51,185 nucleotides of DNA, taken from Pirellulales bacterium (GTDB taxonomy: Bacteria > Planctomycetota > Planctomycetia > Pirellulales > Thermoguttaceae). The DNA lies in NCBI GenBank assembly GCA_016935315.1, contig JAFGRD010000125.1:1-51185 (forward strand), in the 5' to 3' direction. The notes below the pieces were generated by a model, which had not been told where the DNA came from, ran no database searches, and saw only the letters and a program-made list of their open reading frames with translations. The position numbers and the translations under genes were made by a program. This document shows positions 1,781 through 20,754 of this stretch, in pieces. Position 1 is the stretch's first letter. Each line of letters opens with the position of its first letter.

Positions 1781-3505
<1,725 letters not shown>

Positions 3506-5271: not shown

Positions 5272-6989
5272 GCGTGGTACCGGGGACGAAAGACCGGTTT
5301 TCCTGCCGAGCCGTCGCGGCGGCCGTCGTCTGGGCATGCACCGGCTCTTGTTTGTCGGCCGCCGTGCCGATCCAACTGAAGGACGTCACGGCCGAGACGG
5401 GCATCACGTTCAGGCACACCGACGGCGGCAGCGGACGGCGGTACATCGTCGAAACCGTCAGTGCCGGACTGGCCCTGTTCGATTATGACGGAGACGGCGA
5501 CATCGACATCTACTTCCTCAACGGGGCCCCCTTGCCCGGCACCAAGGTCGAGACGTCGCCGACCAACGCGCTGTATCGCAACGACGGCGGGTGGAAGTTC
5601 ACCGACGTGACGGCCGAGGCCGGGGTGGGCGACACGGGATACGGTCTGGGCGTCGCCGTGGGCGACTATGACAACGACGGAGACCCCGATCTCTTCTTGA
5701 ACAACTTCGGCCCGAACGTCCTCTACCGCAACAACGGCGACGGCACGTTCAGCGACGTCACCCTGCAGGCCGGGCTGGCCGACGGGAGCCGGGTGGGGGC
5801 GGGTGCGTGCTTCCTCGACATGGACGCCGACGGCGACCTGGATCTCTACGCGGCCAACTATCTCGAATTCACCTACGAGATGCACGTCCCCGCCACCTCG
5901 CGCGGCTTTCCCGTGTACGTCAATCCCCGGAACTATCCGGCCCTGCCCGATCACGTCTATCGCAACAACGACGACGGGACGTTTACCGACGTCAGCGAGC
6001 AGTCGGGCGTCGCCGCGCACGCCGGCTGGGGAATGGGCATGGTCTGTGCCGATTTCGACAACGACGGCGATACCGACGTGTTCGTGGCCAACGACGTCGC
6101 GGAGAACTTTCTTTTCCAGAACGACGGGACGGGCAAGTTCGAGGAAGTCGCGCTGATGGCCGGCGCCGCTTACGATCTGGACGGCACGGCCCAGGGAAGC
6201 ATGGGTGTGGACTGCGGCGACTACAACAACGACGGGCTGCTGGATTTCTACCTGACCAGCTACCAGAGCCAATTGACCGCACTGTACAAGAACCTGGGCA
6301 ACGGCGTGCTCGAGGACGTGCGGTTCTTAAGCGGCGCGACCTTGGGAACGCATCCCTACGTCACCTGGGGAAACGGCTTCGTCGATTTCGATCTCGACGG
6401 CGACCGCGACGTGTTCGTCGCCTGCGGCCACCTGCTGGACAACGTGGAGCTGTTCGACGACACGACCTCCTATCACGTCCGGAACATCGTCTATATGAAC
6501 ACCGGCGACGGACACTTCCTCAACGTGTCGGATCAATGCGGCGACGGCCTGGCCGTGAAGCTCAGCAGCCGCGGGGCGGCTTTCGACGATTTGGACAACG
6601 ACGGGGACGTCGACGCCGTGATCCTCAACTCGCGGCGCGAGCCGACCATCCTCCGAAACGACTCCGTCCCGGGGAATCACTGGCTTCAGATTCGGCTGCG
6701 CGGCACGAAGACGAACCGTGACGGCGTCGGCGCCCGGGTGAAGGTCGCCGCCGGCGATCTGACACAAGTCGACGAAGTCCACGGCGGCCGCGGCTATCAG
6801 AGCCACTATGGCTCGCGTCTTTGCTACGGCTTGGGCAAGCGGACCCGCATCGACCGGATCGAGGTCCGTTGGATCGGCGGCGGCGTGGACGTTTTGGAGA
6901 ATGTCGGCGTCGATCGGCTGCTGACCATTACCGAGGGCGGCACGGCAGCCACCGCCGGCCGTCACACCGTTGCGGGGAATTCGCCATGA
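5268..6989 (+). CDS. Exported FG-GAP/ASPIC-UnbV protein (pair 2)
   Basis: A 573-residue paralog of the proteins at 1781 and 8340, very similar along its whole length. It has an N-terminal signal sequence (hydrophobic stretch about residues 15-32, probable cleavage near Ser-Ala-Ala), FG-GAP/VCBS propeller repeats with DxDxDG calcium loops, and a C-terminal ASPIC/UnbV domain. It begins inside the stop codon of the upstream TPR gene (ATGA) and ends inside the start of the next TPR gene (ATGA at 6986-6989), so genes from 3709 to 10010 behave as one translational chain. An extracellular calcium-dependent structural or binding role is inferred from the family. Confidence 0.9.
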   Translation: MSVVPGTKDRFSCRAVAAAVVWACTGSCLSAAVPIQLKDVTAETGITFRHTDGGSGRRYIVETVSAGLALFDYDGDGDIDIYFLNGAPLPGTKVETSPTNALYRNDGGWKFTDVTAEAGVGDTGYGLGVAVGDYDNDGDPDLFLNNFGPNVLYRNNGDGTFSDVTLQAGLADGSRVGAGACFLDMDADGDLDLYAANYLEFTYEMHVPATSRGFPVYVNPRNYPALPDHVYRNNDDGTFTDVSEQSGVAAHAGWGMGMVCADFDNDGDTDVFVANDVAENFLFQNDGTGKFEEVALMAGAAYDLDGTAQGSMGVDCGDYNNDGLLDFYLTSYQSQLTALYKNLGNGVLEDVRFLSGATLGTHPYVTWGNGFVDFDLDGDRDVFVACGHLLDNVELFDDTTSYHVRNIVYMNTGDGHFLNVSDQCGDGLAVKLSSRGAAFDDLDNDGDVDAVILNSRREPTILRNDSVPGNHWLQIRLRGTKTNRDGVGARVKVAAGDLTQVDEVHGGRGYQSHYGSRLCYGLGKRTRIDRIEVRWIGGGVDVLENVGVDRLLTITEGGTAATAGRHTVAGNSP

Positions 6990-8362
6990 AGCGACCAGCC
7001 ACGCCTCGAAAACACAGGAAAGACACCGCACGCTCGGCGCGCAGGGCCCCTGACAACCGCCGCAGGCGGCTGCCGTGGGTGTTGCCGATCGCCGTGGTGG
7101 TCTGCGCGGTCATCTTGGGATGGACCGTAGCCAGACCACTCTGGACGTCGGGCAACACCGGGCGTGCCGGGCCCTCCGAGATCGCTTCCGCCGTACGCAC
7201 GCCCGCGGCCGGCGGCGCTGCTGCGGGGCCGGGCGGCGCAACCGCAGAGCCGGAGGCGATTCCGCCCGTGGCCGAACCGCCGGCTCTGCCGCCGAAACCG
7301 GGGTTGGCGGGGCCCGAGGCCGCGAGTCCGGAGCCCGTGCCAGCGCCGTCGCAGCCCGCCGAGTCGCCCCGATCGGCGGAAGACTATCGCCAGGAGTCGT
7401 TCGAGGTTGCCGAGCAATTGCGGAAGGATTTTCCGGGAAGCACGGACCCGATCGTTCTGCTGGGCATGGTCCACAATTGGCACGGCGGCACCAGCGAGGC
7501 GATGACGTGCTGGGAGCAAGCGTTGCAGCGGAACCCGAACCGGGCCGACGTGTACAAGAACATGGGTATGGTGGCCCGGCAGAACGACGAGCTCGACAAG
7601 GCGGTGGAGCTGTGGCGCAAGGCCGCGGCTCTTCAGCCGAAGATTCCCGACCTCTACAACCTGCTCGGCGAGACGCTGATGGACTTGGGTCGTCTGGAGG
7701 AAGCCGCCGCCGTGCTGGAAAAGGACATCGAGCTTTTTCCGCGGACTACCCAGAGTCACGCGATCCTGGGGCACACCTACCTGCAATTGAAGGAGCCTGA
7801 AAAGGCCAAGGAGCACTACGAGAAGGGCGTCGCACTGTATCCGAAGGATTGGAACGCTTACTACGGCCTGGCCAGGGTGTGCGCCACCTTGGGGCAACGG
7901 GACGAAGCCAGGCAATACAGCCAGCAGTTCAAGAAGCTCAGAGACGCGGACCTGGAGGTGCACGACGCCCGCCGTACAACCACCCGGAAGACGGATTCCG
8001 TGCGGCAGATTCTGGCCAACACCCATACGCATGCGGGCCAGATTTACCGCGCGCATCGCCACGCCTGGAAGGCCGAGAGGCACTTTTGCAGGGCGGCGGA
8101 GCTCGATTCGGAAAACAAAGCATGCCGACGCGAGCTGGCCTCGTTGTACGAGCAGAACAACCGCAACGCGGAGGCGTTGGAGGTGTGCGAACAGCTCGTG
8201 CGGATCAATCCGAAAAACGCCATGTATCATCTCAACGTCGGCGTCTTGAATGCCCGTTTGCAGCGATTCGACGATGCCCGGACGGCCATCGAAAAAGCTC
8301 TGGACCTGGAGCCGGACAACCCGCAGTTCAAACAGACCTATGAATCGATTCCGCAGAGGTAG
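6986..8362 (+). CDS. Membrane-anchored TPR protein (pair 3)
   Basis: A 458-residue protein. The reading frame is open from further upstream, but the ATG at 6986 is chosen because it overlaps the previous stop as ATGA and yields a basic N-terminus (many Arg/Lys in residues 2-28) followed by a single transmembrane helix (about 29-52). A Pro/Ala/Glu-rich linker reaches to about residue 130, then TPR units run to the C-terminus. It is shorter than its two paralogs: the C-terminal TPR region ends about two repeats earlier. Its 3' end overlaps the next gene by 23 bases. Confidence 0.87.
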   Translation: MKRPATPRKHRKDTARSARRAPDNRRRRLPWVLPIAVVVCAVILGWTVARPLWTSGNTGRAGPSEIASAVRTPAAGGAAAGPGGATAEPEAIPPVAEPPALPPKPGLAGPEAASPEPVPAPSQPAESPRSAEDYRQESFEVAEQLRKDFPGSTDPIVLLGMVHNWHGGTSEAMTCWEQALQRNPNRADVYKNMGMVARQNDELDKAVELWRKAAALQPKIPDLYNLLGETLMDLGRLEEAAAVLEKDIELFPRTTQSHAILGHTYLQLKEPEKAKEHYEKGVALYPKDWNAYYGLARVCATLGQRDEARQYSQQFKKLRDADLEVHDARRTTTRKTDSVRQILANTHTHAGQIYRAHRHAWKAERHFCRAAELDSENKACRRELASLYEQNNRNAEALEVCEQLVRINPKNAMYHLNVGVLNARLQRFDDARTAIEKALDLEPDNPQFKQTYESIPQR

Positions 8363-10010
8363 CGTGCTGGCATGGCTGTGTGTCTTCTCGGCGGCCAGCG
8401 CCCAGGGGCCCATCGTGCTGCGCGACGTGACGCGGCAGACGGGCATCACCTTCCGGCACACCGATGGCAGCCGCGGCGATCGCTGCATCGTCGAATCAGT
8501 GACCGCCGGCGTGGCGGTCTTCGACTACGACGGGGACGGCGACGGCGACATCTATTTCCTCAACGGCGCGCCGCCGCCCGGCGCCCGGGTGGACCCCCCG
8601 CCGCGCAACGCCCTGTATCGCAACGACGGTGGCTGGAAGTTCACCGACGTGACCGAGCAGGCGGGCGTCGGCGACCGGGGATTTGCTCTGGGCGTGGCCG
8701 CCGCCGACTACGACAATGACGGCGACGTGGATCTCTACGTCAACAACTTCGGTCCCAACGTGCTGTATCGCAACAACGGCGACGGCACCTTCACCGACGC
8801 CACGGCCGCGGCCGGCGTGGGCAACGGCAACAAGGTCGGGGCCGGGACCTGCTTTCTCGATATCGACGGCGACGGCCACCTGGACCTCTACGTCTCCAGC
8901 TACCTGGAGTTCTCCTACCAGACACACGTTCCCACCACCATCAAGGGCTTTCCCGCCTACGCCAATCCCCGGCGTTATCCCGCGGCGCCCGATAATCTCT
9001 ATCGCAACAACGGCGACGGCACGTTCACCGACGTCAGCGAGCAGTCGGGCATCGCCGCGTACGCCGGGTGGGGCATGGGGATGGTCTGTGGCGACTACGA
9101 CAACGACGGTGACACCGACATTTTCGTCGGCAACGACGTCTCCGAGAACTTCCTCTTCGACAACGATGGCACGGGAGAGTTCGAGGAAGTGGCGCTGATC
9201 GCCGGGGCGGCCTACGACCTGATCGGCCAGGAACACGCCACCATGGGCGTCGATTGCGGCGATTTCAACAACGACGGCTGGCTCGACTTCCACGCCACTT
9301 CCTATCAGGAGCAGTTCGCCACGCTCTACAAGAACCTCGGCGACGGCGCCTTCGAGGACGTGACCCGGTTGACCGGAGCGGGCACCGGAACCCTGCCTTA
9401 TGTCACTTGGGGCAACGCGCTGGCCGATCTCGACAACGACGGAGACCGCGACCTGTTCATCGCCTGCGGACACATCCACGACAACCTGGAGTTGTTCGAC
9501 GACCGGTCGTCGTATCTGGCGAAGAACCAGGTGCTGATGAACACCGGCGACGAGAAGTTCGTGAACGTCTCCGACACGTGCGGCGACGGCTTGACCGTGA
9601 AGCTCAGCAGCCGCGGCGTGGGCCTGGAAGACCTGGACGACGACGGCGACCTCGACGTGGTCGTTCTCAACTCGCGCCGCGAGCCGACCATCTTGCGCAA
9701 CGACTCGCCGGCGGGAAACCACTGGTTGCAGGTCCGGCTGCGCGGCATCAAGAGCAATCGCAACGGCGTGGGCGCCCACGTGAAGGTGGTTGCCGGCGAT
9801 CTGGTGCAGATGGACGAGGTCCACAGCGGCCGCGGCTATCAGAGCCATTACGGGCTGCGGCTGCACTTCGGCCTCGGAAAGCGGAACCGCGTCGATCGCG
9901 TCGAGGTCCGTTGGATCGGCGGGGGCGTCGACGTGCTGGAGAATCCCGGCATCGATCGAGTGGTGACGATTACCGAGGGGAGCGGCCGGACGCCGCCTCT
10001 TTCCCCATAG
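8340..10010 (+). CDS. Exported FG-GAP/ASPIC-UnbV protein (pair 3)
   Basis: A 556-residue protein. The ATG at 8340, inside the end of the TPR gene, gives a good signal peptide (basic Asn-Arg-Phe-Arg-Arg, hydrophobic core, Ala-Ser-Ala cleavage at about residue 21). A GTG at 8364 with AGAGGT before it is possible but would lose the basic segment. FG-GAP/VCBS repeats with calcium-loop motifs fill most of the protein and an ASPIC/UnbV domain ends it. It is the third tandem paralog. Its last 41 bases overlap the convergent binding-protein gene at 9970-11259. Confidence 0.88.
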   Translation: MNRFRRGSVLAWLCVFSAASAQGPIVLRDVTRQTGITFRHTDGSRGDRCIVESVTAGVAVFDYDGDGDGDIYFLNGAPPPGARVDPPPRNALYRNDGGWKFTDVTEQAGVGDRGFALGVAAADYDNDGDVDLYVNNFGPNVLYRNNGDGTFTDATAAAGVGNGNKVGAGTCFLDIDGDGHLDLYVSSYLEFSYQTHVPTTIKGFPAYANPRRYPAAPDNLYRNNGDGTFTDVSEQSGIAAYAGWGMGMVCGDYDNDGDTDIFVGNDVSENFLFDNDGTGEFEEVALIAGAAYDLIGQEHATMGVDCGDFNNDGWLDFHATSYQEQFATLYKNLGDGAFEDVTRLTGAGTGTLPYVTWGNALADLDNDGDRDLFIACGHIHDNLELFDDRSSYLAKNQVLMNTGDEKFVNVSDTCGDGLTVKLSSRGVGLEDLDDDGDLDVVVLNSRREPTILRNDSPAGNHWLQVRLRGIKSNRNGVGAHVKVVAGDLVQMDEVHSGRGYQSHYGLRLHFGLGKRNRVDRVEVRWIGGGVDVLENPGIDRVVTITEGSGRTPPLSP

Positions 10011-11259
10011 CAGTGCCCCACTGGTCTTGTGGCAGGCCCGCAGACGCGTCCTCCGACTCGGCAAGCGACGCGGGCCGGCCGTCCCGGATCGTCCCCAGAC
10101 CAACGGCCCGCGCGTTGCCGCCCAGCGAATCCCATTTCACCTCCGCCGAGACCCCGCTCCAGGGAGAGAGTTCCCGCACGGCGTCGCGGATGCGGGCACG
10201 ATTGAGTCCGGCCTTGTCCATGGCGTCGATCAGCAGGCGCACGGCGTCGTAGGCGTGGGCCGCGGCATAATCGGGGGACCTGCCAAAGCGGTCTTGAAAC
10301 GTCGCCACGAATTGCCTCGGCGCCGCCTGGGAATCGAACAGCAGCGGAAAGACGACTCCCTCGGCCGCCGCCTGGGCCGCCTGGGCGAAGGCGTGGCGCC
10401 CCATGGCCGGGCCGCCGAAGATCGTGCCGCGAAAGCCTGCTTCGCGCAAGGCGGCGACAAGCCGAGCACTGTCGCGGGCCCCGGCCACCGCAACGACCGC
10501 CTGAACGTCGGCGCCGACCACCCGCGCGGCCAATTCGCCCAGGTCCGCGGCGCCCCGCCTGTGCTCGAAGTGATATCGCGGAACCAGCTTCCGCTCGGCG
10601 AAGCACCTGCCAAGCTCCACGGCGAACAGGTGCGGATCGTGATCGTCGGCCGACACGAGCAGAAACTTCCCCTTCCCGACGCGCGCCGCCACGGCCGCGG
10701 CCAGCACCGGCGCTTGCAGGTGATCGCCGGGGACCATCGAGAACATCCACGGCACGTTGGCCAGGTTGACCGTCTTGTCGGTGCTGGCGGGGCCAACCAG
10801 CGTGAGCCGGGCCTTGGCTACCACCTGTTCGGCAAGGTGCGTCGACGGGCCGTCGATGCCGCCGACGATCGCCCAGACCTTGTCGTCGTAGACCATGCGG
10901 GTGAGCCTGGCCACGCCGGTTCCCCAGGGGTTGTCCGACCAACCGGCCACGAGCCGGTACGGCTTTCCCCGATAGCCGCCCCGCTGGTTGGCCTCGTCGA
11001 CGGCAAGCTTGGCGGCACGCCACATGTCGCCGCCGTCGGGATGCGACGGGTCGTTTGGGCCGAAGTAGCCGATTCGGACCTCTTCGACGTCTTCCGGGGC
11101 AGGCGTGCGCCGACCGGGACCGGCGTAGTCGGCCTGACGGCTTCGGGCATGGAAGAACGGCTCCGACGACGCGCGTTGCAGCGGCGGCGCTTCGCCGGCC
11201 GCTGCCGGGCAGCAGAGGCAGGCAACGGCGAGACAAACAACCACCGCGCGACGAGCCAT
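9970..11259 (-). CDS. Orphan periplasmic binding protein (Peripla_BP_6-like), second copy
   Basis: A 429-residue exported protein of the branched-chain amino acid/amide receptor class (type I periplasmic fold). The signal peptide ends near residue 21. A short linker precedes the first strand (EVRIGYFGP, about residue 55), followed by the family's EANQRGGY helix region and an AIVGG loop. The ATG at 11259 is chosen because it precedes the signal peptide. The frame stays open upstream but there it is antisense to nothing real and overlaps the neighbouring gene. It lies 23 bases downstream of a related binding-protein gene, is last in a six-gene operon, and has no permease or ATPase nearby. The ligand is unknown, and a sensory or complex-subunit role is as possible as transport. 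Confidence 0.85.
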   Translation of the reverse strand: MARRAVVVCLAVACLCCPAAAGEAPPLQRASSEPFFHARSRQADYAGPGRRTPAPEDVEEVRIGYFGPNDPSHPDGGDMWRAAKLAVDEANQRGGYRGKPYRLVAGWSDNPWGTGVARLTRMVYDDKVWAIVGGIDGPSTHLAEQVVAKARLTLVGPASTDKTVNLANVPWMFSMVPGDHLQAPVLAAAVAARVGKGKFLLVSADDHDPHLFAVELGRCFAERKLVPRYHFEHRRGAADLGELAARVVGADVQAVVAVAGARDSARLVAALREAGFRGTIFGGPAMGRHAFAQAAQAAAEGVVFPLLFDSQAAPRQFVATFQDRFGRSPDYAAAHAYDAVRLLIDAMDKAGLNRARIRDAVRELSPWSGVSAEVKWDSLGGNARAVGLGTIRDGRPASLAESEDASAGLPQDQWGTAMGKEAASGRSPR

Positions 11260-11282: not shown

Positions 11283-12770
11283 TTACTGGATCTCCGCCGA
11301 ACTGGTCGCCGTCACCGGCGGCTGGACCGGATCGCCCGGCGTCGCGGACTGCCGGGCAAGCCCCAGATCCTCGCGGGAGTAGTATTTCCAGGCTCCCTGT
11401 TCGCGTTTGGCGAGAAAGACCTCGCCCAGATCGTCGAGGCACGCGCTGAGGGGGATATCGCCGGTGACGCCCTCGAAGGGCGTGGCACGATAGGCCAGCA
11501 CGTCGCGGATTTTCGCCCGATTCAACCCGGCGACCTGGATGGCCCAAATCACCATGTTCATGCCGTCGTAGGCGTGGGCCGCATAGGTCTCCGGCTCTTC
11601 GCCGAAGCGCTCGCGAAAGGCCTCGCTGAAGGCCTGATACTTCGGGTCTGTTCTCGTGGGGTCCCAGGGATAGGTGCAGACGACGCCTTCGGCGTTGTCG
11701 CCGGCGATTTCCAGGAACTCGTCGCAGAGGCAGCGGTCGCAAGCGTAGAACGGGTGCTGCATGCCTTCGCGCCGCATCTGGTTGAGGACGCGGGCGCCGT
11801 CGGCGGCGTCGCCCCAGTGAACCACGGCCTCGACGTTCGCTTGTCGCAACCGCTCCAATTGCAGCGAGTAATCGGTGCTGCCCACCTGGTAGGCCATTTC
11901 CAGCGGCACGGGGTTCTTCAGGCGACGGCTGCCGTCGCGGATTTCGCGGACACCGAAGCGTCCGTAGCGATTGCTGGCCCGGATCACTCCCACGCGCTGG
12001 TAGCCGAGCTTGTGATACAGGTAGTCGACCAGCAGGTACCCTTGCTGGCGGTCGTCGCCGATGCAGCGGACCACCCAGGGAATGTTGGTTTCGATGAACG
12101 TGGGATCGGTATCGCCGCTGTTCATCATCACGATCTCCGCCTTCAGGGCCACGCGAATTGCGATGTGGCTGTTGGCGCCGTCGATGGTTCCCAAAATGGC
12201 CCAGACGTTGTCTCTGTAGGCCATGTCGACGATTTCGTTTCCCGAGGCTCCCCACAACCCGTTGTCGTTCTTGACGATCAGCTCGAAGGGAATCTTCCGT
12301 TTCAGGTAGCCCCCTCGCTGGTTGGCCTCCTCGATGGCGAGCTGCGAGCCCTGGAGCATCTTGATTCCCAGGACCTCTTCGTGGCTCTTGCCGCCGGTGG
12401 CCACCGAGACCGTGGACATGATCGGCCCGATGAAGCCGATCTTCACGGTCTGGACGTCCTTCGGCTCGGGCTTCGCCCGGCCCGGCCCCGTGTACTCCAG
12501 TTGCAGCAGGAAATGCTCCTTGTACGGTTTCACGTGGCGGAACGGTTCCACTTCGCGCGATGTGTGGGCGTAGTTCTGATCTTGCTTCAACCCCAGGTCG
12601 GGGACCTCGTACGGGCCAACCGAGTTGATCGTCTCGAGAACCTGGCGGGTTGAGTCGTCGATGGCGATCGGTGGCGGCGTTCGCGAGGCGTCGGTTCCCT
12701 CGGTCTCGGCCAGCGCCAACGGCGCCGCCGACAATAGTGCCACGAGCAGGAGAATCAGTTGACGTTTCAT
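11283..12770 (-). CDS. Orphan periplasmic binding protein (Peripla_BP_6-like), first copy
   Basis: A 495-residue exported receptor-type protein with a signal peptide (cleavage after Ala-Leu-Ala, residue 21). About 85 residues of family-specific N-terminal extension come before the first beta strand (TVKIGFIGP near residue 109). Recognisable type I binding-protein landmarks follow, including EEANQRGGY, the AILGTIDGA loop and an AAHAYDGMN motif late in the second lobe. A GAGGTGG ribosome site sits four bases before ATG. It is a diverged paralog of the next gene. Known relatives bind branched-chain amino acids, urea or amides, and I cannot tell which. No ABC permease or ATPase is present in the window. 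Confidence 0.87.
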   Translation of the reverse strand: MKRQLILLLVALLSAAPLALAETEGTDASRTPPPIAIDDSTRQVLETINSVGPYEVPDLGLKQDQNYAHTSREVEPFRHVKPYKEHFLLQLEYTGPGRAKPEPKDVQTVKIGFIGPIMSTVSVATGGKSHEEVLGIKMLQGSQLAIEEANQRGGYLKRKIPFELIVKNDNGLWGASGNEIVDMAYRDNVWAILGTIDGANSHIAIRVALKAEIVMMNSGDTDPTFIETNIPWVVRCIGDDRQQGYLLVDYLYHKLGYQRVGVIRASNRYGRFGVREIRDGSRRLKNPVPLEMAYQVGSTDYSLQLERLRQANVEAVVHWGDAADGARVLNQMRREGMQHPFYACDRCLCDEFLEIAGDNAEGVVCTYPWDPTRTDPKYQAFSEAFRERFGEEPETYAAHAYDGMNMVIWAIQVAGLNRAKIRDVLAYRATPFEGVTGDIPLSACLDDLGEVFLAKREQGAWKYYSREDLGLARQSATPGDPVQPPVTATSSAEIQ

Positions 12771-12810: not shown

Positions 12811-14028
12811 TTAGTTTGCTTTCAAACCCGGGTAATAGTCTGAGCCGATGGCCCAACCGAGCCCCTTGGAGGTGCCGACCCAGACGTCGTTGCCGTCGAA
12901 GTCGACCCACAGGGCGTAGTTGTGAGGGATGCTCTTGGGCATCTCGACGGTCTTGAGCACGTCCGTGCCGCGGCGGATCACGGCGCGGCCGGTCCTTTTC
13001 TTGGGGTCCATGGTGTAGGTGACCCACGTATCGGTGGGAAAATCGGTGACCACGCCGAGCCCCTTGTCGGTGGCGAACCAGGCCTCGTCGGCGCCGCGGC
13101 CGGCCACCGAATTGCCGAAGTCGCTGGGCAGGCCCGTCTCGTGGGCGTAGTATCCGCGCCAGTGCCGCCCGTCGTAGCGGCACATGCCGAAATAGCTCGA
13201 CACCCAAAGGATGCCGTCGACGTAGCTGGTCCCCGTGGTGATCACGTGGACGATCCCGTCATCGCGATAAAGATCGATTTCCATTTCCCCGTCGGGGTCC
13301 AGGTAGTCCTTCCAGCGCTCGGTGGCCACGTCGAATTCCAGCACGCCGCTGCCCCAAATCCCGAGATACACCTTGCCCGCGTCGTACGACACACCGTAGT
13401 TCCAGATCTCTTCCATCGGCGAGTTCTTCTCGGTGTAGATGGTCCATTGGCCGGTGACCGTGTTGTAGCGGCTGGCCCCGGCGGTCGTGGCGGCCCAGAC
13501 GTGGTCGTTTTCCACGGCCACGCCGTAGACCACGTCGTTGACCAGCCCGCTGTTGAGTTGGTGGAAGTGGTCGAAGCGCCCGCCGCTGAAGCGGGCCAAC
13601 CCGCCGCCGAACAGGCCGACCCAGAGCTCCCCGGTCTTCTTATTGACGGCGAAGCTCGAGACGACCTTCCAGGGCAGGCCGTCCTTTTCCCTCCAACTGC
13701 GGATCTTGCCGGTCCGTTTGTCGTAACAGGCCAGGCCGTCCTCGGTGCCGATCCACACCTTGGGGCCGTCGGCCTTCACCGCGAAGACATGGTCGTTGGG
13801 GAGACCGTCGGCAACGGTGAGGTGTTTCCAGTTGGTATAGACGTAGGGCAGCCCCTCCACCGCTACCGGTGGCGTTGCCGTTTCGGGCGGCGCAGCCGTT
13901 GCCGGCGCCGCCTGCTGTTGCCGGTTGTTGCCGGCCGTGTCCGTTTCGACGGCCCAGCCGACGGCGGCCGGCGCGATCGCCGCCCAGCCCCACGCGAAGC
14001 CCTTCAGCAGCGTTGCAAAGACGTTCAT
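12811..14028 (-). CDS. Exported two-component-regulator-type beta-propeller
   Basis: A 405-residue protein. The ATG at 14028 is chosen, with GGAGAG about seven bases before it, giving a hydrophobic signal sequence (residues about 4-27). After an Ala/Pro-rich linker it contains about six or seven Reg_prop-type units with the pattern DGLPNDHVFAV...WIGTEDGL. In two-component sensors such units form periplasmic propellers joined to a kinase. Here nothing follows the propeller: no transmembrane helix, kinase or DNA-binding region. It is therefore a stand-alone soluble propeller, probably a structural or binding subunit of the operon's periplasmic assembly. Confidence 0.82.
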   Translation of the reverse strand: MNVFATLLKGFAWGWAAIAPAAVGWAVETDTAGNNRQQQAAPATAAPPETATPPVAVEGLPYVYTNWKHLTVADGLPNDHVFAVKADGPKVWIGTEDGLACYDKRTGKIRSWREKDGLPWKVVSSFAVNKKTGELWVGLFGGGLARFSGGRFDHFHQLNSGLVNDVVYGVAVENDHVWAATTAGASRYNTVTGQWTIYTEKNSPMEEIWNYGVSYDAGKVYLGIWGSGVLEFDVATERWKDYLDPDGEMEIDLYRDDGIVHVITTGTSYVDGILWVSSYFGMCRYDGRHWRGYYAHETGLPSDFGNSVAGRGADEAWFATDKGLGVVTDFPTDTWVTYTMDPKKRTGRAVIRRGTDVLKTVEMPKSIPHNYALWVDFDGNDVWVGTSKGLGWAIGSDYYPGLKAN

Positions 14029-14137: not shown

Positions 14138-17047
14138 TCAGAGCGTCTTCAGGTACTCAATCAAGTCGTTAAGTTGATCCTTCGTCATGTCATTGGTCAC
14201 GCCGTGTTCGTCGTAAGGGTTAAACGTCGTCCAAATCTGCTCCAGGGTCTCGGCGATTCCATTGTGCAGATATGGCGCCGAATCGTAAATGTTGTTCAAG
14301 TGTGGCACGTCGAATTCCGATTCCCGATCCAGCGGCATCTTCGTGCCCACGTCGCGCCGGCTACGATCGGTATACAACGGCGGGAAGTGGCACGTGACAC
14401 ACCGCCTGTCTTTGGGAATCACCCGCCCGTCGTTGGCCATGGTCCTGTTGAACATCGCCCTGCCCCGGCGTTGGGCGTCGGTCAACTCGGCCCCCAGCGG
14501 CCGGTAGCGGTTCGGCGGCCGCGGGATCGTGCAGATGTAGGTATCCAGGGCCGAGAGTTGCTCGGGCGTGAACGGCTGGATGCGCGTAAAGAAGACCGAC
14601 AGTCGCGGACCGCACTGGCGCTGCAGGCTCGGATTAGTGCCTTCCCACTTGAACGGGGCCGTGTCGAGGATGCCCCGCAGCGTGCGGTTGTCGACCGGGC
14701 TGATGCCGATCCCGTCCGGTTCGATGTCGTAGGTGATCCCGTCGACGTGCCCGTCCGGATGGCAGGAATGACACGAGAACTGCCGGTGAAACGTGATGTC
14801 GGCGCTGTGAAACAGCCGTTCGCCGTAGCGGGTCTTGGTGATCTCTTTCGGCCCGCCGAGGTCCACGCGATCGACGACCGCCAGACTCTCCAGATCAATG
14901 ACCGAAAGCGAATCGTCCAGGGCATTGGCGACGAAGGCCGACTTGCCGTCGGGTGTGATCAGCACGCCCCGGGGGCTCTGCCGGACGGGAATGTGGGCGA
15001 TGACGAATTCCGTCGGCTTGCCCATGTGGTTGGGAAACACGTGCTCGCGGTCGTAGTCCGAAGCCGCGCCGAGCATGGCGATCAGCTTGGAGAGATCGAC
15101 CACCGCCACGCGATCCGAGCCGGAGCTGGTCACCAGGGCCAGGCGGCCGTCGGGCGAGACGGCCACGTCGGTCGGGTCCGGGAAACAGAGGTTGGGCTCG
15201 TCCAACAAGACCTGGGCGACACGGCCGTCGCGCCAGACGACGCCCATGCCGTTGGTAATGGTCCAGCCCTGCATCAAGCGGGTCATCGGCACCAGGTTCT
15301 TCGTGCGGTTGAGCGTAATCAGAGCGAACTCGCCGCCGGGATGCCAGGCAATCCCCTGAAGCAGATTGGCGGCCGGCACGACCAGGCGATCTGCCACCAC
15401 CAAACGGGCCGTGTCAATGACCGTGATCTCCGACTGGGACGGCGTGCGGAATTCGACGAACTGCGAGAGGTTGTTGGTTGCGAAAATCTGCGCTCCGTCG
15501 GGAGACAACGCCAACGACCAGGGGCTGCGACCCGCCGAAAGGCGTTTGATCTCCTGCAAGGAAGCCGTGTCGATCACCGAAATGTCGTCGGACGACGTGT
15601 TGAGCACGTAGAGCACGGTGCCCGCGGGATCGGTCAGCACGCCGTGCGGCTCGTCGCCCACCGCAATGGTCGCCAGCACCTTTCGGGCGGCCACATGGAT
15701 CACCGACACGGTGTCGTCGAGCCGATTGCTGACGTAGGCCCGTGTGCCGTCGGGGCTGAAGGTGACGTCGGTGGGATGGTGGCCGGCCGGAATTTCCGCG
15801 ACCTTCCGCCGGGCAGCCACGTCGACCACGATCACGGTGTGCGCGGCCTCGCAGGCAACGTAGAGCTCCTTGGCGTCGGGGCTGAGGGCCATGTGCAGCG
15901 GGGTCTTGTAGCACGGGGCTTCGGCCACGGCGGGGGTCTGTTTGGGATGGGCAATCTTTGCCAGCGCCTGCTCGTAATCGAACGGCTTGTCGTGTGCGTT
16001 CTGGTGACAGCCGAGGCACGTTTCCCGCGCAACCTGCTTCAACCCGGCCGACCTGGCCGCCGGGGGGTCCCGCATCACGGCCTCGTGTGAATACTCGCTT
16101 CCCGCGCCGTGGCAGGCCTCGCAGCCGACGCCTTCGTCCAGCGCGAAGCGCTTGCCGAATCCGCCCGCCGGATCGTGATAGGCCGCGGTGTGGCATTTCA
16201 GGCAGTCGGGGCTTAGCCGCGGATCGCCCTCGACGCCCGCCTCTTTGGCCAGGGCATAGCCCTCGGGGCTGGCCAGCACGGCGTAGGCACTGGCGTGCTT
16301 GCTCATCCGCCACTTGCCGAACTGATAGCCCATCATGGGACCTTTGTGGCATTGACCGCAGGCCACGGACCCGGTGTATTTCGCCTGGGTCGTGTCTTCC
16401 GCCGGTTTGGGCAGCTCCGGTCCTTCGCCCGTCTTCCACGGGTCGGGAGTGGGATGCTTCAACTGCTCCCACGCCTGGTCCATGTCCAGCTTGGGGGTTT
16501 TCAGCACGGCCACGTGAGAGCCCTTGACGTTGTGGCAGCCCATGCAGTCGTTCATGACGGGAATCATCAGTCCCGCCCTCTCCGATAGCTTGCGGTTGAC
16601 CATAATCTCCGCGTTCGCGTATTCGCTCCCCGGGCCGTGACACTTCTCGCATTGGACGCCGTCTTCGGTAACAAACGTCTCGTCCCTCTCCCACGCCTCC
16701 ACCTGAACACCCGTGGCGTGGCAACCCAGGCACATCGCGGCTTCCTGCGGCTCTCGAGGGATGCCGCTGAGCCGGGCGATCTCCTGGGATTCGGGCTTGG
16801 CCAGGGCCGCATAGGCCGCGGAGTGCTTCGAGAGCAACCAGCGGGCGAACTGATGTCCCATGCCCTCGCCCTGGTGACAAGTGGCGCATTGTCGGGCGCC
16901 GATATAGACGGGATGAGCTTCCTCCGCCGCGCCCAGCGGCGCCGGCCGCGCCAGAGCAGCCAGCAGCAACCCACAAACTACGGTGGCCGCTACGACGGCT
17001 CGGACTCGCGTTGTTGTGCGAAACGTGGTGGACATGTCAGATCGCAT
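14138..17047 (-). CDS. Ten-haem fusion: octahaem cytochrome + YVTN propeller + MauG/CCP-like dihaem domain
   Basis: A 969-residue exported protein. The ATG at 17047 is chosen for AGGT seven bases upstream. The other candidate at 17074 would overlap the previous stop. The signal sequence ends near residue 41. CxxCH motifs begin at residues 54, 106, 133, 168, 230, 282, 309 and 344, and the first four and second four are arranged alike (each third motif is followed by Gly-x-Gly-Ser-Glu-Tyr), so two cytochrome c554-like tetrahaem modules are duplicated in tandem. About 375-700 is a YVTN-type propeller (DDTVSVI, SDDISVID, DDSLSVID repeats). The C-terminal third has two more motifs, CHSCH (about 760) and CVTCH (about 884), in a MauG/cytochrome-c-peroxidase-like arrangement. 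It lies between genes for other exported proteins. An electron-transfer enzyme is inferred and its substrate is unknown. Confidence 0.88.
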   Translation of the reverse strand: MRSDMSTTFRTTTRVRAVVAATVVCGLLLAALARPAPLGAAEEAHPVYIGARQCATCHQGEGMGHQFARWLLSKHSAAYAALAKPESQEIARLSGIPREPQEAAMCLGCHATGVQVEAWERDETFVTEDGVQCEKCHGPGSEYANAEIMVNRKLSERAGLMIPVMNDCMGCHNVKGSHVAVLKTPKLDMDQAWEQLKHPTPDPWKTGEGPELPKPAEDTTQAKYTGSVACGQCHKGPMMGYQFGKWRMSKHASAYAVLASPEGYALAKEAGVEGDPRLSPDCLKCHTAAYHDPAGGFGKRFALDEGVGCEACHGAGSEYSHEAVMRDPPAARSAGLKQVARETCLGCHQNAHDKPFDYEQALAKIAHPKQTPAVAEAPCYKTPLHMALSPDAKELYVACEAAHTVIVVDVAARRKVAEIPAGHHPTDVTFSPDGTRAYVSNRLDDTVSVIHVAARKVLATIAVGDEPHGVLTDPAGTVLYVLNTSSDDISVIDTASLQEIKRLSAGRSPWSLALSPDGAQIFATNNLSQFVEFRTPSQSEITVIDTARLVVADRLVVPAANLLQGIAWHPGGEFALITLNRTKNLVPMTRLMQGWTITNGMGVVWRDGRVAQVLLDEPNLCFPDPTDVAVSPDGRLALVTSSGSDRVAVVDLSKLIAMLGAASDYDREHVFPNHMGKPTEFVIAHIPVRQSPRGVLITPDGKSAFVANALDDSLSVIDLESLAVVDRVDLGGPKEITKTRYGERLFHSADITFHRQFSCHSCHPDGHVDGITYDIEPDGIGISPVDNRTLRGILDTAPFKWEGTNPSLQRQCGPRLSVFFTRIQPFTPEQLSALDTYICTIPRPPNRYRPLGAELTDAQRRGRAMFNRTMANDGRVIPKDRRCVTCHFPPLYTDRSRRDVGTKMPLDRESEFDVPHLNNIYDSAPYLHNGIAETLEQIWTTFNPYDEHGVTNDMTKDQLNDLIEYLKTL

Positions 17048-17060
17048 CGCGTACCTGCTT

Positions 17061-18686
17061 TTATGGCTCTGCATCTTGAACTACCGTCAGAATCTGGTTC
17101 GCCTCGACGTTTTCCAGTTCCGTCGTGCGGCCGTCGGGCCAGCGGATTTCGACGCGATCCGCCCGCGGGGCCTTCCCCAGGCCGAAATGGACCCGCGGGT
17201 CGGCCTGCGACAGGTATCCGGTCACCGGCATCAATTCCTGGACTTGGGTCAACGCGCCCGCCGTGACGCAAAGGCGGGCCCCGATCGCGTCTCTTTTTCC
17301 GCCGTGCAGCCGGGCGGCGATGGTCAGCCACGCGTGGCGGTTGCCGCCGTCGTTGCGCAGCAACCGCGGGGAATCGTTGAGGTTGACGACCAGCAGATCC
17401 AGGTCGCCGTCGTTGTCGAAGTCGCCGTAGGTAGCCCCTCGCCCCACGTACTTCTTGTGGAAGTAGTCGCCCGACTGCCGCGCCACGTCGATAAAGTTGC
17501 CCCGGCCGTCGTTGCGCATCAACACGTCTTCTTCGCTATACTCGTGGTGGGCGTTGCCGTTGGCAATGAAGACGTCCAGGTAACCGTCGTTGTCGTAGTC
17601 CAGCAGCAGCCCACCCCAGCCCGTGTATTGTCCGCAGACGACGGCCAGGTTCGACGGTGCGGTGCGATCCTCGAAGTAGTCGCCGCGGTTCATCAGCAAG
17701 CAGCCGTAGCCCATGTCGGGAACGTAGATGTCCGGCCGGCCGTCGCGGTCGACGTCGCCGACGGCCGGGCCCATGGAAGAAACGCCCTGGCCGCCTTCGC
17801 CGAACGCCATGCCCGTCACCAGCGCCTCTTCCTCAAACGTGCCCTTGCCCGTGTTGCGGTAGAAGTAGTTCTCCATCCCGTCGTTGGTCACGTAGACGTC
17901 GAGCCAGCCGTCGTTGTTCAAATCGGCCACGGTGGCGCTCATCCCGCGCCCGTTGGTGTTGTGCACGCCGGCCTCCGCGGTGACGTCGGTGAAGGTGCCG
18001 TCGCCGTTGTTGCGGTACAGCGCGTCGGGGCGACCGCTGTAACTCAGCGGCCCGGGATAACCGGTCGCCGCGTAAAACGACCGGAACTTGCCGGCGTCGT
18101 ATTCCAGATAGTTGGCCACGTAGACGTCCAAGTCGCCGTCCCGATCGTAGTCGAACCAGGGGGCCGAAAGGCTCCAGTGGGGATTGGCCAGACCCGACGG
18201 CCCGGAGACGTCGGTAAACGTGCCGTCGCCGTTGTTGCGATAGAGGACGTTCGGCCCGTAGTTGAGCACGTAGAGGTCCAGGTCGCCGTCGTTGTCGTAA
18301 TCGGCGGCCGAGCATCCGAAGCTGAAGCTCCGATCGCCCACGCCGGCCTCCGTGGTGACGTCGGTAAACGTGCCGTCGCCGTTGTTGCGCTGCAGCGTGT
18401 TGCAGAGCTGGTCGCGCAGCCGGCGGCCGCGGTTGTGATTGACGTCTTTTTGCCAGCACCCGTTGGCGAAATAGATGTCGAGCCGGCCGTCGCCGTTGTA
18501 GTCGAAGAATACCGCGCCGGCGCCCGTCCCCTCGACGATGTTGTCCAACTCGTAATCGCCGTAGCTGTGCTTGACGTGAATGCCCGCCTGCTCGGTCACG
18601 TCGGTGAAGACGGGCAACTCGGGCTCGGCGCCGCGGGCCGCGGCGGCCATGGCGATCCAGGGTAGCAGCATGGCAACGGGTCTCAT
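17061..18686 (-). CDS. Exported FG-GAP/ASPIC-UnbV protein in cytochrome operon
   Basis: A 541-residue CRTAC1-type protein with a signal peptide (cleavage near Ala-Arg-Gly-Ala, residue 20), FG-GAP/VCBS repeats with YNGDGRLDIYF, DYDNDGDLDLY and similar calcium loops, and a C-terminal ASPIC/UnbV domain. It is more distant from the three plus-strand copies than they are from one another. A GAGGGAGA stretch lies before the ATG. It sits 19 bases after the HzsA-like gene and 13 bases before the decahaem gene, so it is almost certainly co-transcribed with both. This ties an FG-GAP protein to a c-type cytochrome system. Confidence 0.9.
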   Translation of the reverse strand: MRPVAMLLPWIAMAAAARGAEPELPVFTDVTEQAGIHVKHSYGDYELDNIVEGTGAGAVFFDYNGDGRLDIYFANGCWQKDVNHNRGRRLRDQLCNTLQRNNGDGTFTDVTTEAGVGDRSFSFGCSAADYDNDGDLDLYVLNYGPNVLYRNNGDGTFTDVSGPSGLANPHWSLSAPWFDYDRDGDLDVYVANYLEYDAGKFRSFYAATGYPGPLSYSGRPDALYRNNGDGTFTDVTAEAGVHNTNGRGMSATVADLNNDGWLDVYVTNDGMENYFYRNTGKGTFEEEALVTGMAFGEGGQGVSSMGPAVGDVDRDGRPDIYVPDMGYGCLLMNRGDYFEDRTAPSNLAVVCGQYTGWGGLLLDYDNDGYLDVFIANGNAHHEYSEEDVLMRNDGRGNFIDVARQSGDYFHKKYVGRGATYGDFDNDGDLDLLVVNLNDSPRLLRNDGGNRHAWLTIAARLHGGKRDAIGARLCVTAGALTQVQELMPVTGYLSQADPRVHFGLGKAPRADRVEIRWPDGRTTELENVEANQILTVVQDAEP

Positions 18687-18705
18687 TCTCCCTCTCCCTC
18701 ACGCA

Positions 18706-20754
18706 CTAGTTGCCCTTGTCGGCAAGCGGTTCAGCCGCGGGAATCCCGTCCCATAATGCTCCCATATCGATCCATTCGACCAGGGTCCGTTTCTCGTCGT
18801 CGCCAAGCGGTTTCGCCCCGGCGGGCGGCATCTGCCTTACCGGTTTCGCAGAAGCCTCCGCGTCCCAGGGCCGAGACGTGTTGCGCCCGAAGATCCTCCA
18901 AATCAACGGGCTCGTGCGCGCTTGGCCGGCATCGACGTACCGCCCGGGACGCTCCCGGTTGCCGCCGGACAAGAGGCTTTCGTAGGCCCGGTTGAACCAG
19001 GCGCCGCCGCCGGGATGCTCGACCGGCTCGAGCCCGCCGTCGAAGTGCGGAGACTGCTTTCCCTGCCGGTGACAAGGGGCACACTTCGCGGTGAGGATCG
19101 GCATCACGTCGCGGCGGAAATCGACGGTCCGCCTCCGGTCGGGCGGAAGCGTCAGCGGCGTCGAGAGACGCTCGACCGCGTCGACGAACCGGTTTTCGGG
19201 CGTCAACTCGGGGTCCTCGTGGCAGCCGATGCACCCTCGCGGTTCGTGGTTCTTCGCCCAGATCCAACCACAGGTCCGCAGGGCCATGCCGTCGGCGTCG
19301 AGCGTTTGCAGCTCGATGGGCGTGTCGGCCGGCACTTCGATGTTGAACGAACCGTCGGCCTCGACGTCGATCTCGCCGAGGATCCGCCGCTGCACCAGCG
19401 GAGGAATCCCGTGGATCGTCGAGCCCGGCAGACCCGGCGAATCGCGGTGCCCCACGGGCAGATAGGCCGCCGCAGCGCCGACACGAATCGGGACTCCCTC
19501 GAGCACTCGCAGCCTCTTCACACTGCCGGGCGGCATCCAATTCGGGTCCTTCAGATCGGACAAGTAGACGTTCAGGCAATAGAGCCGGCCGTGCGGATCC
19601 TCTTCGGTCACGACGCTCGAACGGCCGTCCGGGATCGGACGCGGGTGGATCAGCTTGGGCTGGATCTCGTGGAATCGGGGGTCGTCGAAAACCAACTCGG
19701 CCTTCTCGGAGACCGGGTCGAAACGGTAGACGCCGTGGGTCGCCGGGCCGTCGCCGGGCCGCCGGGAGACGAGGATTCGCCCGTCGGGAAGCGGCGAGGG
19801 CGAGTGGAACAGCCCGTCCGCCTCGCCGGTGATCTGCCGATAGGTGTGCAACGGGCGGCGGAGGTCCACACAAGCCAGACAGCCGGCCCCGTCCCAAGGC
19901 AGGCGGTCGGACTCGACAAACACGGCCAGCCCGCCGGCGGTGATGCAGGGCATGTGCTTGATGCGCCGACCCTGCCCATCGGCGAAGAGGGCAAAATCGG
20001 CCCCGTCGATGTTCACGCCAAAGAGCCCGACGCGCCCCAGCAGTCCCCGGCGAAGCGTCGAGCGCTGCCAACTGGCAAACAGCAACCTGCCGTCGGACAT
20101 CACAAACGGGTCCATGTCGCTGGAGAGGTTGAACGTCAGCCGGCGCACGGCCGAGCCGTCGAGCTTGCAGGAATAAAGATGCGTGGCCACCGTGGAGCCG
20201 TACTCGTCCATCGTCGCGGCGCCGTTGCCGACGAACGTGAGCTGGTACCACGGCTTGGGCGAGATGATCGTGTAGAGCGTCGATTGGTAGCCCGGGCCGC
20301 GGCAATCGCCGAGATCCCGGGTAATCTGCCGCGGATCGGAGCCGTCGATACCCATTTCGTACACGTTCCAGCGATCGGCGGCCGTCTTCTTGGCGGCAAA
20401 GAGGATTCGCGTCGCGTCGAAGGAAACATCGGGATCGCACGCGCTATGGAAGCGCCCGCTGAGCACGCGGGCCGTGCCGTCGGGCAGAACGACGACCAGT
20501 CGTGCACCGTCGCCGTAGGGGGCCCGGAGCATCCCGCCCGCGACCGGCGGCGCCTTTTCGGCGTCGGTTCCGGCGGGAATCTGGGTGAGAACCAGCGGTG
20601 CCTCGAGTGCCGTCCGGGGTCGGGCGACCCGTTCGGCCGGCGCAGCCGAAACCACCGCGACAGACAAGGCCCACGCCCCGGCCGCCAACACGCATCCCAG
20701 AGCCAACGAGAATCGGTGTCCCCGCGCGTGATATGACAAGGCGATTGCAGTCAC
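18706..20754 (-). CDS. HzsA-like dihaem beta-propeller protein
   Basis: A 682-residue exported protein starting at GTG (20754) with GGGG five bases upstream. The signal sequence lies around residues 15-38. About 75-400 reads as TolB/PD40-like propeller blades (repeated DG-x-x-LxF and SPSPLPDGRI patterns). The middle region ends in CIGCHEDPELTPENRF (CxxCH at about 506-510), and a second motif CAPCH lies near 557. Propeller, middle domain and two haem sites in this order match the alpha subunit of anammox hydrazine synthase and its many unassigned planctomycete homologs. As I recall, in the true enzyme a tyrosine four residues after the first CxxCH ligates the haem iron. Here that position is Glu, so the same chemistry should not be assumed. 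It is first in a six-gene operon. Confidence 0.8.
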   Translation of the reverse strand: MTAIALSYHARGHRFSLALGCVLAAGAWALSVAVVSAAPAERVARPRTALEAPLVLTQIPAGTDAEKAPPVAGGMLRAPYGDGARLVVVLPDGTARVLSGRFHSACDPDVSFDATRILFAAKKTAADRWNVYEMGIDGSDPRQITRDLGDCRGPGYQSTLYTIISPKPWYQLTFVGNGAATMDEYGSTVATHLYSCKLDGSAVRRLTFNLSSDMDPFVMSDGRLLFASWQRSTLRRGLLGRVGLFGVNIDGADFALFADGQGRRIKHMPCITAGGLAVFVESDRLPWDGAGCLACVDLRRPLHTYRQITGEADGLFHSPSPLPDGRILVSRRPGDGPATHGVYRFDPVSEKAELVFDDPRFHEIQPKLIHPRPIPDGRSSVVTEEDPHGRLYCLNVYLSDLKDPNWMPPGSVKRLRVLEGVPIRVGAAAAYLPVGHRDSPGLPGSTIHGIPPLVQRRILGEIDVEADGSFNIEVPADTPIELQTLDADGMALRTCGWIWAKNHEPRGCIGCHEDPELTPENRFVDAVERLSTPLTLPPDRRRTVDFRRDVMPILTAKCAPCHRQGKQSPHFDGGLEPVEHPGGGAWFNRAYESLLSGGNRERPGRYVDAGQARTSPLIWRIFGRNTSRPWDAEASAKPVRQMPPAGAKPLGDDEKRTLVEWIDMGALWDGIPAAEPLADKGN

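Follow-up and report, generated by a model that had tools for sequence, protein, structure and literature searches.

Hydrazine synthase (HZS), which makes the key intermediate of anaerobic ammonium oxidation (anammox), had been thought to be without relatives (PMC12758564). Homologues of the enzyme have been described by Hagglund et al. (2025), including a clade I, and the key residues of HZS were concluded not to be kept in them (PMC12758564). In the Phycisphaerae lineage UBA1845, an hzsA-like gene lies next to a fused hzsBC-like gene, and a wider family of HZS-like enzymes was proposed (PMC10732223). We analyzed a 51,185-nucleotide stretch of DNA (the window; bases 1-51185 of contig C172) from a Pirellulales genome (G000; 7.1 Mb, 95% complete), and describe in it a cluster of six closely packed minus-strand genes that encode an HzsA-like protein, an FG-GAP/ASPIC protein, a fusion of octahaem, HZS-beta-like and HZS-gamma-like parts, a Reg_prop propeller and two periplasmic binding proteins. 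Both their sequences and their predicted structures indicate that the HzsA-like protein and the fusion are almost certainly homologues of HZS subunits, with the features of clade I. The cluster is an HZS homologue and not an HZS; its active sites are altered, which makes a different reaction very probable. The first three genes, and the parts of the fusion, are as follows.

18706..20754, minus strand: HzsA-like protein of 682 amino acids with a GTG start (running from a signal-like N terminus through a propeller and the HZS_alpha domain in the middle to a cytochrome c end).
17061..18686, minus strand: FG-GAP/ASPIC-UnbV (CRTAC1-like) protein of 541 amino acids (PF13517, 200 bits; PF07593, 89 bits).
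14138..17074, minus strand: octahaem, HZS-beta-like propeller and HZS-gamma-like dihaem fusion of 978 amino acids (Pfam, NCBIfam and PDB matches).
15932..16912, minus strand: tandem pair of cytochrome c554-type tetrahaem domains of the fusion (PF13435, 110 bits in 2 stretches; cytochrome c554 1bvb, E 9e-6).
14855..15907, minus strand: YVTN propeller of the fusion, HZS beta-like; Lys592 lies in its loop (5c2v_B, E 3.2e-39).
14141..14854, minus strand: dihaem domain of the fusion, HZS gamma-like, with haem motifs at 14759-14773 and 14387-14401 (5c2v_C, E 2e-28 with a profile).

A preliminary description of positions 14138-20754 had recognized an HzsA-like protein with a propeller, a middle domain and the haem motifs CIGCH and CAPCH, a YVTN propeller fused to a MauG/CCP-like dihaem domain two genes away, an added octahaem module and an FG-GAP gene in between. 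All of these parts are indeed present, the first in 18706-20754, the second in 14138-17074, the octahaem module as eight CxxCH motifs in two Cytochrome_C554 domains, and the FG-GAP gene at 17061-18686. The range given, however, ends too early, and the cluster runs on to 9970. Of the checks proposed at that stage, an HZS_alpha profile search, single-chain structure prediction compared with Kuenenia HZS, and a phylogeny of HzsA homologues with their neighbours came out in favor of the assignment, and their results are given below. Neither of the outcomes named as refuting it, a missing HZS_alpha match or unlike middle-domain fold on the one hand and homologues never accompanied by the propeller-dihaem partner on the other, was observed.

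The HZS_alpha domain (PF18582) was matched by residues 410-513 of the HzsA-like protein with 81.9 bits (E 4.9e-23; Pfam cut-off 26.6), and the propeller is of the TolB/PD40-like type. The NCBIfam model hydrazine_alpha scored 243 bits (E 4.3e-72), which does not reach its cut-off of 800; when 392 genomes of the phylum were scanned with this model, at most two candidates being scored per genome, the cut-off was passed in 27, and the window protein was the best match below it. The top PDB match is the alpha subunit of Kuenenia HZS (5c2v_A, E 1.3e-59), and a profile of the HzsA-like protein aligned to anammox HzsA in hhalign with E 7.7e-90. The AlphaFold2 model, with a mean predicted local distance difference test (pLDDT) value of 85 and a predicted template modelling score of 0.85, superposes through residues 49-677 on 5c2v_D with Z 37.1, a root-mean-square deviation of 3.8 and 602 aligned residues, covering all domains. 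TolB reached Z 27 on the same model, with a fit that scarcely extends beyond the first domain.

The fusion carries eight CxxCH motifs in its N-terminal part (residues 63, 115, 142, 177, 239, 291, 318 and 353), kept in 72 of 73 orthologue rows, and ends in a CCP/MauG-like dihaem domain with the motifs CHSCH and CVTCH. NCBIfam hydrazine_BC matched it with 221.5 bits (E 1.7e-65), short of the cut-off of 1250. In a PDB search with the fusion an archaeal YVTN surface protein came first, followed by 5c2v_B (E 3.2e-39) and 5c2v_C (E 2.9e-20); the gamma-like part aligned to anammox gamma with E 6.5e-31 in hhalign. The fusion model (pLDDT 77) gave a Foldseek template modelling (TM) score of 0.90, normalized on 5c2v_B; its gamma part is poorly predicted, and 5c2v_C was absent among its best 50 Foldseek matches. 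Each tetrahaem half belongs to the family of cytochrome c554 (1bvb), which is here duplicated and joined to a protein of catalytic type. Outside the CxxCH motifs, only His 84, 187, 260 and 376 of the octahaem part are at least 95% conserved, and with so few conserved histidines some of the eight haems may be without a His distal ligand. In an Opitutaceae locus (L087:7365-10355) the fusion has four N-terminal haem motifs and the second alpha haem motif is missing, as described for Opitutus terrae (PMC12758564).

A scan of a genome collection with the fusion retrieved 90 relatives, of which 80 were kept as loci (44-78% identity in the best segment). By the labels in the locus records, 39 belong to Planctomycetota, 22 to Acidobacteriota and 10 to Verrucomicrobiota, 3 carry other labels and 6 have no phylum; the labels Campylobacterota and Myxococcota may reflect binning errors. 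At least one of the loci, L070, comes from a strain with a name, Aquisphaera insulae. Six of 60 genomes, which comprise the window's own and those of its family and order, hold a full-length fusion; G015 matches the octahaem part only partially and was placed among the genomes without the cluster. The genes downstream of the fusion in the window are the following.

12811..14028, minus strand: Reg_prop propeller protein, ATG at 14028, frame open from 14085 (PF07494, 28.5 bits).
11283..12770, minus strand: periplasmic binding protein 1 of the branched-chain amino acid/amide type (PF13458, 133.6 bits; top PDB match 4gnr, E 7.2e-23).
9970..11259, minus strand: periplasmic binding protein 2, of the same fold family (PF13458, 141.8 bits, from 11232; top PDB match 4gnr, E 1.3e-18).

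In transcription order, the distances between the six genes are 19 bases, a 14-base overlap, 109, 40 and 23 bases, and all six proteins begin, as judged by eye, with a hydrophobic signal-like stretch. Gene-order counts were made over loci whose contig extends far enough. The alpha-like gene lies upstream of the fusion, its propeller-dihaem partner, in 51 of 52 loci, and the FG-GAP gene directly precedes the octahaem gene in 62 of 63 (including L066, whose apparent exception is an artefact of open reading frame (ORF) limits). The Reg_prop gene follows in 71/71 loci; the gene of binding protein 1 is found in 64/64 and that of binding protein 2 in 44/52. The Reg_prop gene and the first binding-protein gene equal the haem genes in constancy, and the order of the six genes is maintained across several phyla.

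Could two generic planctomycete protein types have come to lie side by side by chance? The genome indeed holds 29 HZS_alpha domains, in frames of approximately 700-1700 residues that form a large propeller-cytochrome family, and propeller-dihaem proteins without an octahaem part occur in many related genomes. The constancy of the alpha-fusion order in several phyla refutes this explanation, which we regard as having a negligible probability. With 29 such domains in the genome, the HZS_alpha domain by itself was dropped as evidence, and the tree and the partner weigh instead. In an unrooted tree of 40 alpha proteins, the clade I-type sequences and anammox HzsA are separated from nine of the 29 HZS_alpha paralogues of the genome by a split with 100/100 support. 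One locus, L102, falls beside anammox (75/49), so that the set called clade I here is not one clean branch. L102 is divergent in other respects, with an FG-GAP gene upstream of alpha, a single alpha haem motif, no CG-R signature and four haem motifs on a short ORF of their own, and probably belongs to another clade. Eight octahaem-less propeller-dihaem proteins served as the paralogue sample for the fusion. The beta-gamma tree, also unrooted, was calculated without the cysteine columns. It groups clade I with anammox with only 83/39 and has long branches, and we make no claim of a sister relation for the beta-gamma parts. Counts of residue columns were 25 uniting clade I and anammox, 20 clade I and paralogues, and 15 anammox and paralogues, with unlike thresholds; one of the 25, column 325 within the octahaem part, is an artefact of the alignment. 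Two of the octahaem-less paralogues without the third haem-binding cysteine of HZS lie at G000:C11:8931-10505 and C87:101249-102889, with no HZS_alpha match listed on either contig.

Residue conservation was followed in 53 alpha rows and 73 beta-gamma rows; L100 and L154 are one contig present in two collections, leaving no more than 52 and 72 distinct rows. Short or split ORFs without the second haem motif (L068, L072, L074, L079, L081, L082, L085 and L096), the cut ORFs L040, L044, L053 and L104, and one of the two ORFs of L078 were excluded from the alpha set. Ten ORFs that extend into the cysteine region and are partial, split or short were left out of the beta-gamma set; CG-R is present in nine of them and missing in L102. 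The sites of interest in the alpha-like protein are given first.

19219..19233, minus strand: haem alpha-I-like motif CIGCH, residues 508-512 (CxGCH in 53/53 rows).
19207..19209, minus strand: Glu516, four residues after the motif His, where HZS has the haem ligand Tyr591 (Glu in 52 and Asp in 1 of 53 rows).
19069..19083, minus strand: haem alpha-II-like motif CAPCH, residues 558-562 (51/53 rows).

The fourth residue after the motif His is acidic in every alpha row, versus Tyr in 12/12 anammox sequences. The full motif, GC-x-GCHED-x-E, is kept in 51/53 rows, L090 having Asp as its last letter and L102 Asn for the first Asp, and CxGCH with Glu at the same place recurs in 11/11 partial or short ORFs extending this far; in eight paralogues from the same genome, only the Glu directly after the motif is kept. 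The Kuenenia-type row L144 has His587, Ser590, Tyr591, His689 and His772 at exactly these numbers. MAFFT places Glu516 opposite Tyr591, whereas hhalign sets Ser590-Tyr591 against a gap; the published alignment also shows a two-residue gap in the homologues at Ser590-Tyr591 of HZS (PMC12758564), and the model has pLDDT below 50 at residues 510-513. Glu516 may occupy the position of the haem ligand, gap placement being ambiguous. Thus, of the earlier statement that a Glu stands in place of the ligand Tyr, the acidic residue is borne out and the ligand position hangs on the choice of alignment. His772, the distal His at alpha-II in HZS, faces a gap in hhalign, with Met642 nearby in 32/53 rows. 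No His, Met or Lys outside the two haem motifs is invariant in the 53 rows, the best being Met268 (48/53) and His362 (44/53), in keeping with an alpha-I haem that would be open. The alpha-II motif is also missing from the short or split alpha-like ORFs of another 8 loci, and is therefore dispensable; its haem has no known function in HZS either (PMC12607021, PMC12758564).

The site of interest in the gamma-like part is the following.

14612..14614, minus strand: Cys821, opposite gamma Cys165, which in HZS is the third cysteine to bind haem (73/73 rows).

Cys821 is found in 73/73 rows, in 10/10 anammox sequences and in 0/8 octahaem-less paralogues, and hhalign also sets Cys on Cys. The same distribution holds for Gly822 and for Lys592 of the beta loop, and nearly so for Arg831 (72/73, 10/10 and 0/8). 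The cluster shares with anammox HZS (Kuenenia, 5c2v) its modules and folds, the alpha-I CxxCH (His587), the gamma-I region with its third cysteine and the loop lysine, and differs in the added octahaem part, a reversed gene order and extra genes. Beta and gamma are fused in the cluster but separate in most of the anammox loci compared (fused in L147). Tyr591, His772, gamma His144 and gamma Asp168 of HZS (residue data from PMC12607021 and PMC12758564) are not kept.

The absence of these four residues supports the earlier expectation that the reaction is probably different. It also speaks against a true hydrazine synthase in an unrecognized anammox bacterium, as hypothesized for Phycisphaerae with hzs-like genes (PMC10732223). 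The three modules are those of HZS, but the NCBIfam scores are far under their cut-offs, and PF13447 (HAO-type) has no match in the window's genome (95% complete), where two anammox genomes searched in the same way gave 15 and 14. In the four cluster-bearing genomes searched, a single PF13447 match was found, in G036. We consider a true HZS very unlikely.

The closest described relatives are those of clade I (PMC12758564). With these the window shares the alpha-like gene upstream, the CRTAC1 FG-GAP gene in between and the beta-gamma fusion, in this order, as well as two c554 domains with eight additional haem motifs, the two haem motifs of alpha, the absence of His772, the kept gamma Cys165 (Cys821) and the replacement of His144 by Trp (Trp810). 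Two binding-protein genes downstream are also described, in wording that leaves open in which clades. There is no difference of substance; the constant acidic residue, Reg_prop and the RidA-family genes described below are not mentioned in the available portions of that text. UBA1845 is likewise a planctomycete outside Brocadiales, in which an HzsA-like gene precedes a BC-like fusion gene. Its two genes are reported as immediately adjacent, however, and no octahaem part or FG-GAP gene is mentioned in the portions available (PMC10732223). Clusters of this kind are thus already published; new here are the constant Reg_prop and binding protein 1 genes, the RidA-family gene beside the cluster in most of the Acidobacteriota loci with enough flank, the pattern of gamma Cys, Arg and loop Lys against paralogues, and the acidic residue after the alpha-I motif. 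A term search of the text of PMC12758564 returned neither 'Acidobacteri' nor 'Verrucomicrob'. Two of the species it names nevertheless belong to these phyla. The literature searched, as far as its texts were available, held no functional assay of clade I-type clusters and no mention of a RidA or Reg_prop partner.

Our preferred explanation as a whole, with a probability of roughly 0.4, is a multihaem reductase in the periplasm that acts on a small N-oxide, for example nitric oxide (NO); the N-oxide reduction in it is put forward tentatively. The cluster proteins would be exported, and the two haem proteins would, like the subunits of HZS, assemble into a single complex. The fused octahaem part would act as a built-in electron wire, in place of the separate cytochrome that feeds HZS, and electrons would pass from it through gamma-II to the gamma-I haem. 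This haem, which would be bound by the third cysteine as in HZS, would reduce the N-oxide, most likely NO, to the level of hydroxylamine or ammonium. The product may then travel along the beta loop to alpha-I, where an open haem would form a second site and no hydrazine would be made because the proximal side is altered. The FG-GAP and Reg_prop propellers might serve as scaffold, the two binding proteins might capture or sense a molecule resembling an amino acid or an amide, and RidA, where present, might handle a reactive imine-like product.

In favor of this explanation stand the homology of both proteins, the gamma-I residues common to HZS and the fusion but missing from the octahaem-less paralogues, the lack of acidic residues at 822-832, the eight c554-type haem motifs, the alpha-I haem without an invariant ligand candidate, the six-gene order in several phyla and the alpha tree. 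Several observations weigh against an N-oxide reductase. Gamma His144 of HZS is Trp (Trp810) and gamma Asp168 is Leu, each in 73/73 rows, and therefore even the gamma-I site differs from that of HZS; the gamma region of the fusion model is weak, with pLDDT below 50 at residues 777-830. In most rows the alpha-I haem could have Met268 or His362 as its distal ligand, which would close the site. The neighbours (binding proteins, RidA and, at few loci, a C-N hydrolase) suit an organic nitrogen compound as much as NO. Finally, the ammonium-forming nitrite reductase NrfA has a match of 495 bits in the window's genome (G000:C167:16820-18070), and nrfA matches above 100 bits occur in 18/60 genomes, the window's own included. 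They are found in 4/6 cluster-bearing genomes versus 14/54 others, a lean that is not significant (p 0.06; 0.13 within the family) and does not firmly connect the cluster with N-oxide metabolism; the two cluster-bearing genomes without a match, G001 and G036, are 82 and 76 percent complete.

Trp810 aligns in all 73 rows with the Trp of the Nitrosomonas peroxidase 1iqc. Together with the two C-terminal haem motifs and the family resemblance to CCP and MauG, this would suit a dihaem peroxidase or a MauG-like protein-modifying enzyme, with hydrogen peroxide at gamma-I and Trp810 bridging the haems. Dihaem peroxidases use a distal catalytic Glu, for which the fusion appears to offer no counterpart: no acidic residue occurs in the 73 rows at 822-832, the stretch that aligns with 1iqc, although the local alignment is weak. 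Compared with dihaem peroxidases and MauG (1iqc, 3l4m), the dihaem end and the Trp between the haems are shared, whereas the third cysteine, common to HZS, the octahaem part and the alpha partner set the fusion apart. An HzsA-like partner at nearly every locus is not expected for a peroxidase, and we hold this explanation to be unlikely.

The RidA-family genes bear on a further possibility, oxidation of an organic amine or amide-derived substrate. This substrate would be delivered by the binding proteins and oxidized to an imine by the dihaem and alpha haems, with electrons leaving through the octahaem part and the imine hydrolyzed by RidA. A RidA-family gene is found at 25/80 loci; at 21 of these, judged from ORF limits, the nearest cluster gene is no more than 40 bases away, and at 2 the RidA-family gene is on the opposite strand; its identity was checked with PF01042 (54-78 bits for three loci, 66 for L076). 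Among loci with 1.5 kb upstream, it occurs in 14/17 Acidobacteriota, 4/6 Verrucomicrobiota and 1/21 Planctomycetota. The frequency in Acidobacteriota, the two binding proteins of amino-acid/amide type and a C-N hydrolase at 6/80 loci speak for amine oxidation, and the near absence of RidA from Planctomycetota loci speaks against it. Moreover, the RidA sequence examined has no evident signal peptide (judged by eye) and so would be in another compartment, and the main matches of the six proteins include no domain of the known quinone-cofactor amine dehydrogenases, to which there are weak propeller matches only. Amine oxidation also leaves the HZS-type third cysteine unexplained, and it appears possible but rather doubtful. 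RidA lies immediately upstream of the alpha-like gene in L057, L059, L064, L067, L095 and other loci of Acidobacteriota and Verrucomicrobiota, and in L025 and L076 the RidA-family protein is longer, with two RidA stretches. The C-N hydrolases near the cluster are of one family (L041:16322-17353, L080, L083, L028, L065 and L078).

The preliminary description had also suggested a relative of the ancestor of HZS, or a parallel to it. Homology of both proteins is upheld by profile, structure and tree; 'ancestor' is not borne out, given the unrooted trees and the low support of the beta-gamma grouping. It would be improbable, though of wide consequence, that the cluster is the relic of a machine ancestral to HZS, a periplasmic complex in which NO is reduced at the three-cysteine haem with electrons from the octahaem part, hydroxylamine is passed on and joined at alpha-I to an organic nitrogen nucleophile, a carboxylate takes the place of Tyr591 and RidA acts on the product. 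If so, bacteria of several phyla would possess a widespread, unrecognized N-N or oxime-type chemistry. A conserved six-gene HZS homologue in several phyla, including Aquisphaera insulae, could in any event provide a direct route to the role of the enzyme before anammox: the third gamma-I cysteine, the nearby arginine, the loop lysine and the alpha fold are HZS features common to the homologues, while Tyr591, His772, gamma His144 and Asp168 are seen only in anammox.

On the plus strand of the window, tetratricopeptide repeat genes (186-1706 and 3709-5271) alternate with FG-GAP/ASPIC genes (1781-3505, 5268-6989 and 8250-10010), in a convergent arrangement with the cluster. L027, L029, L031, L080, L083 and L099 also have related FG-GAP genes convergent to it.

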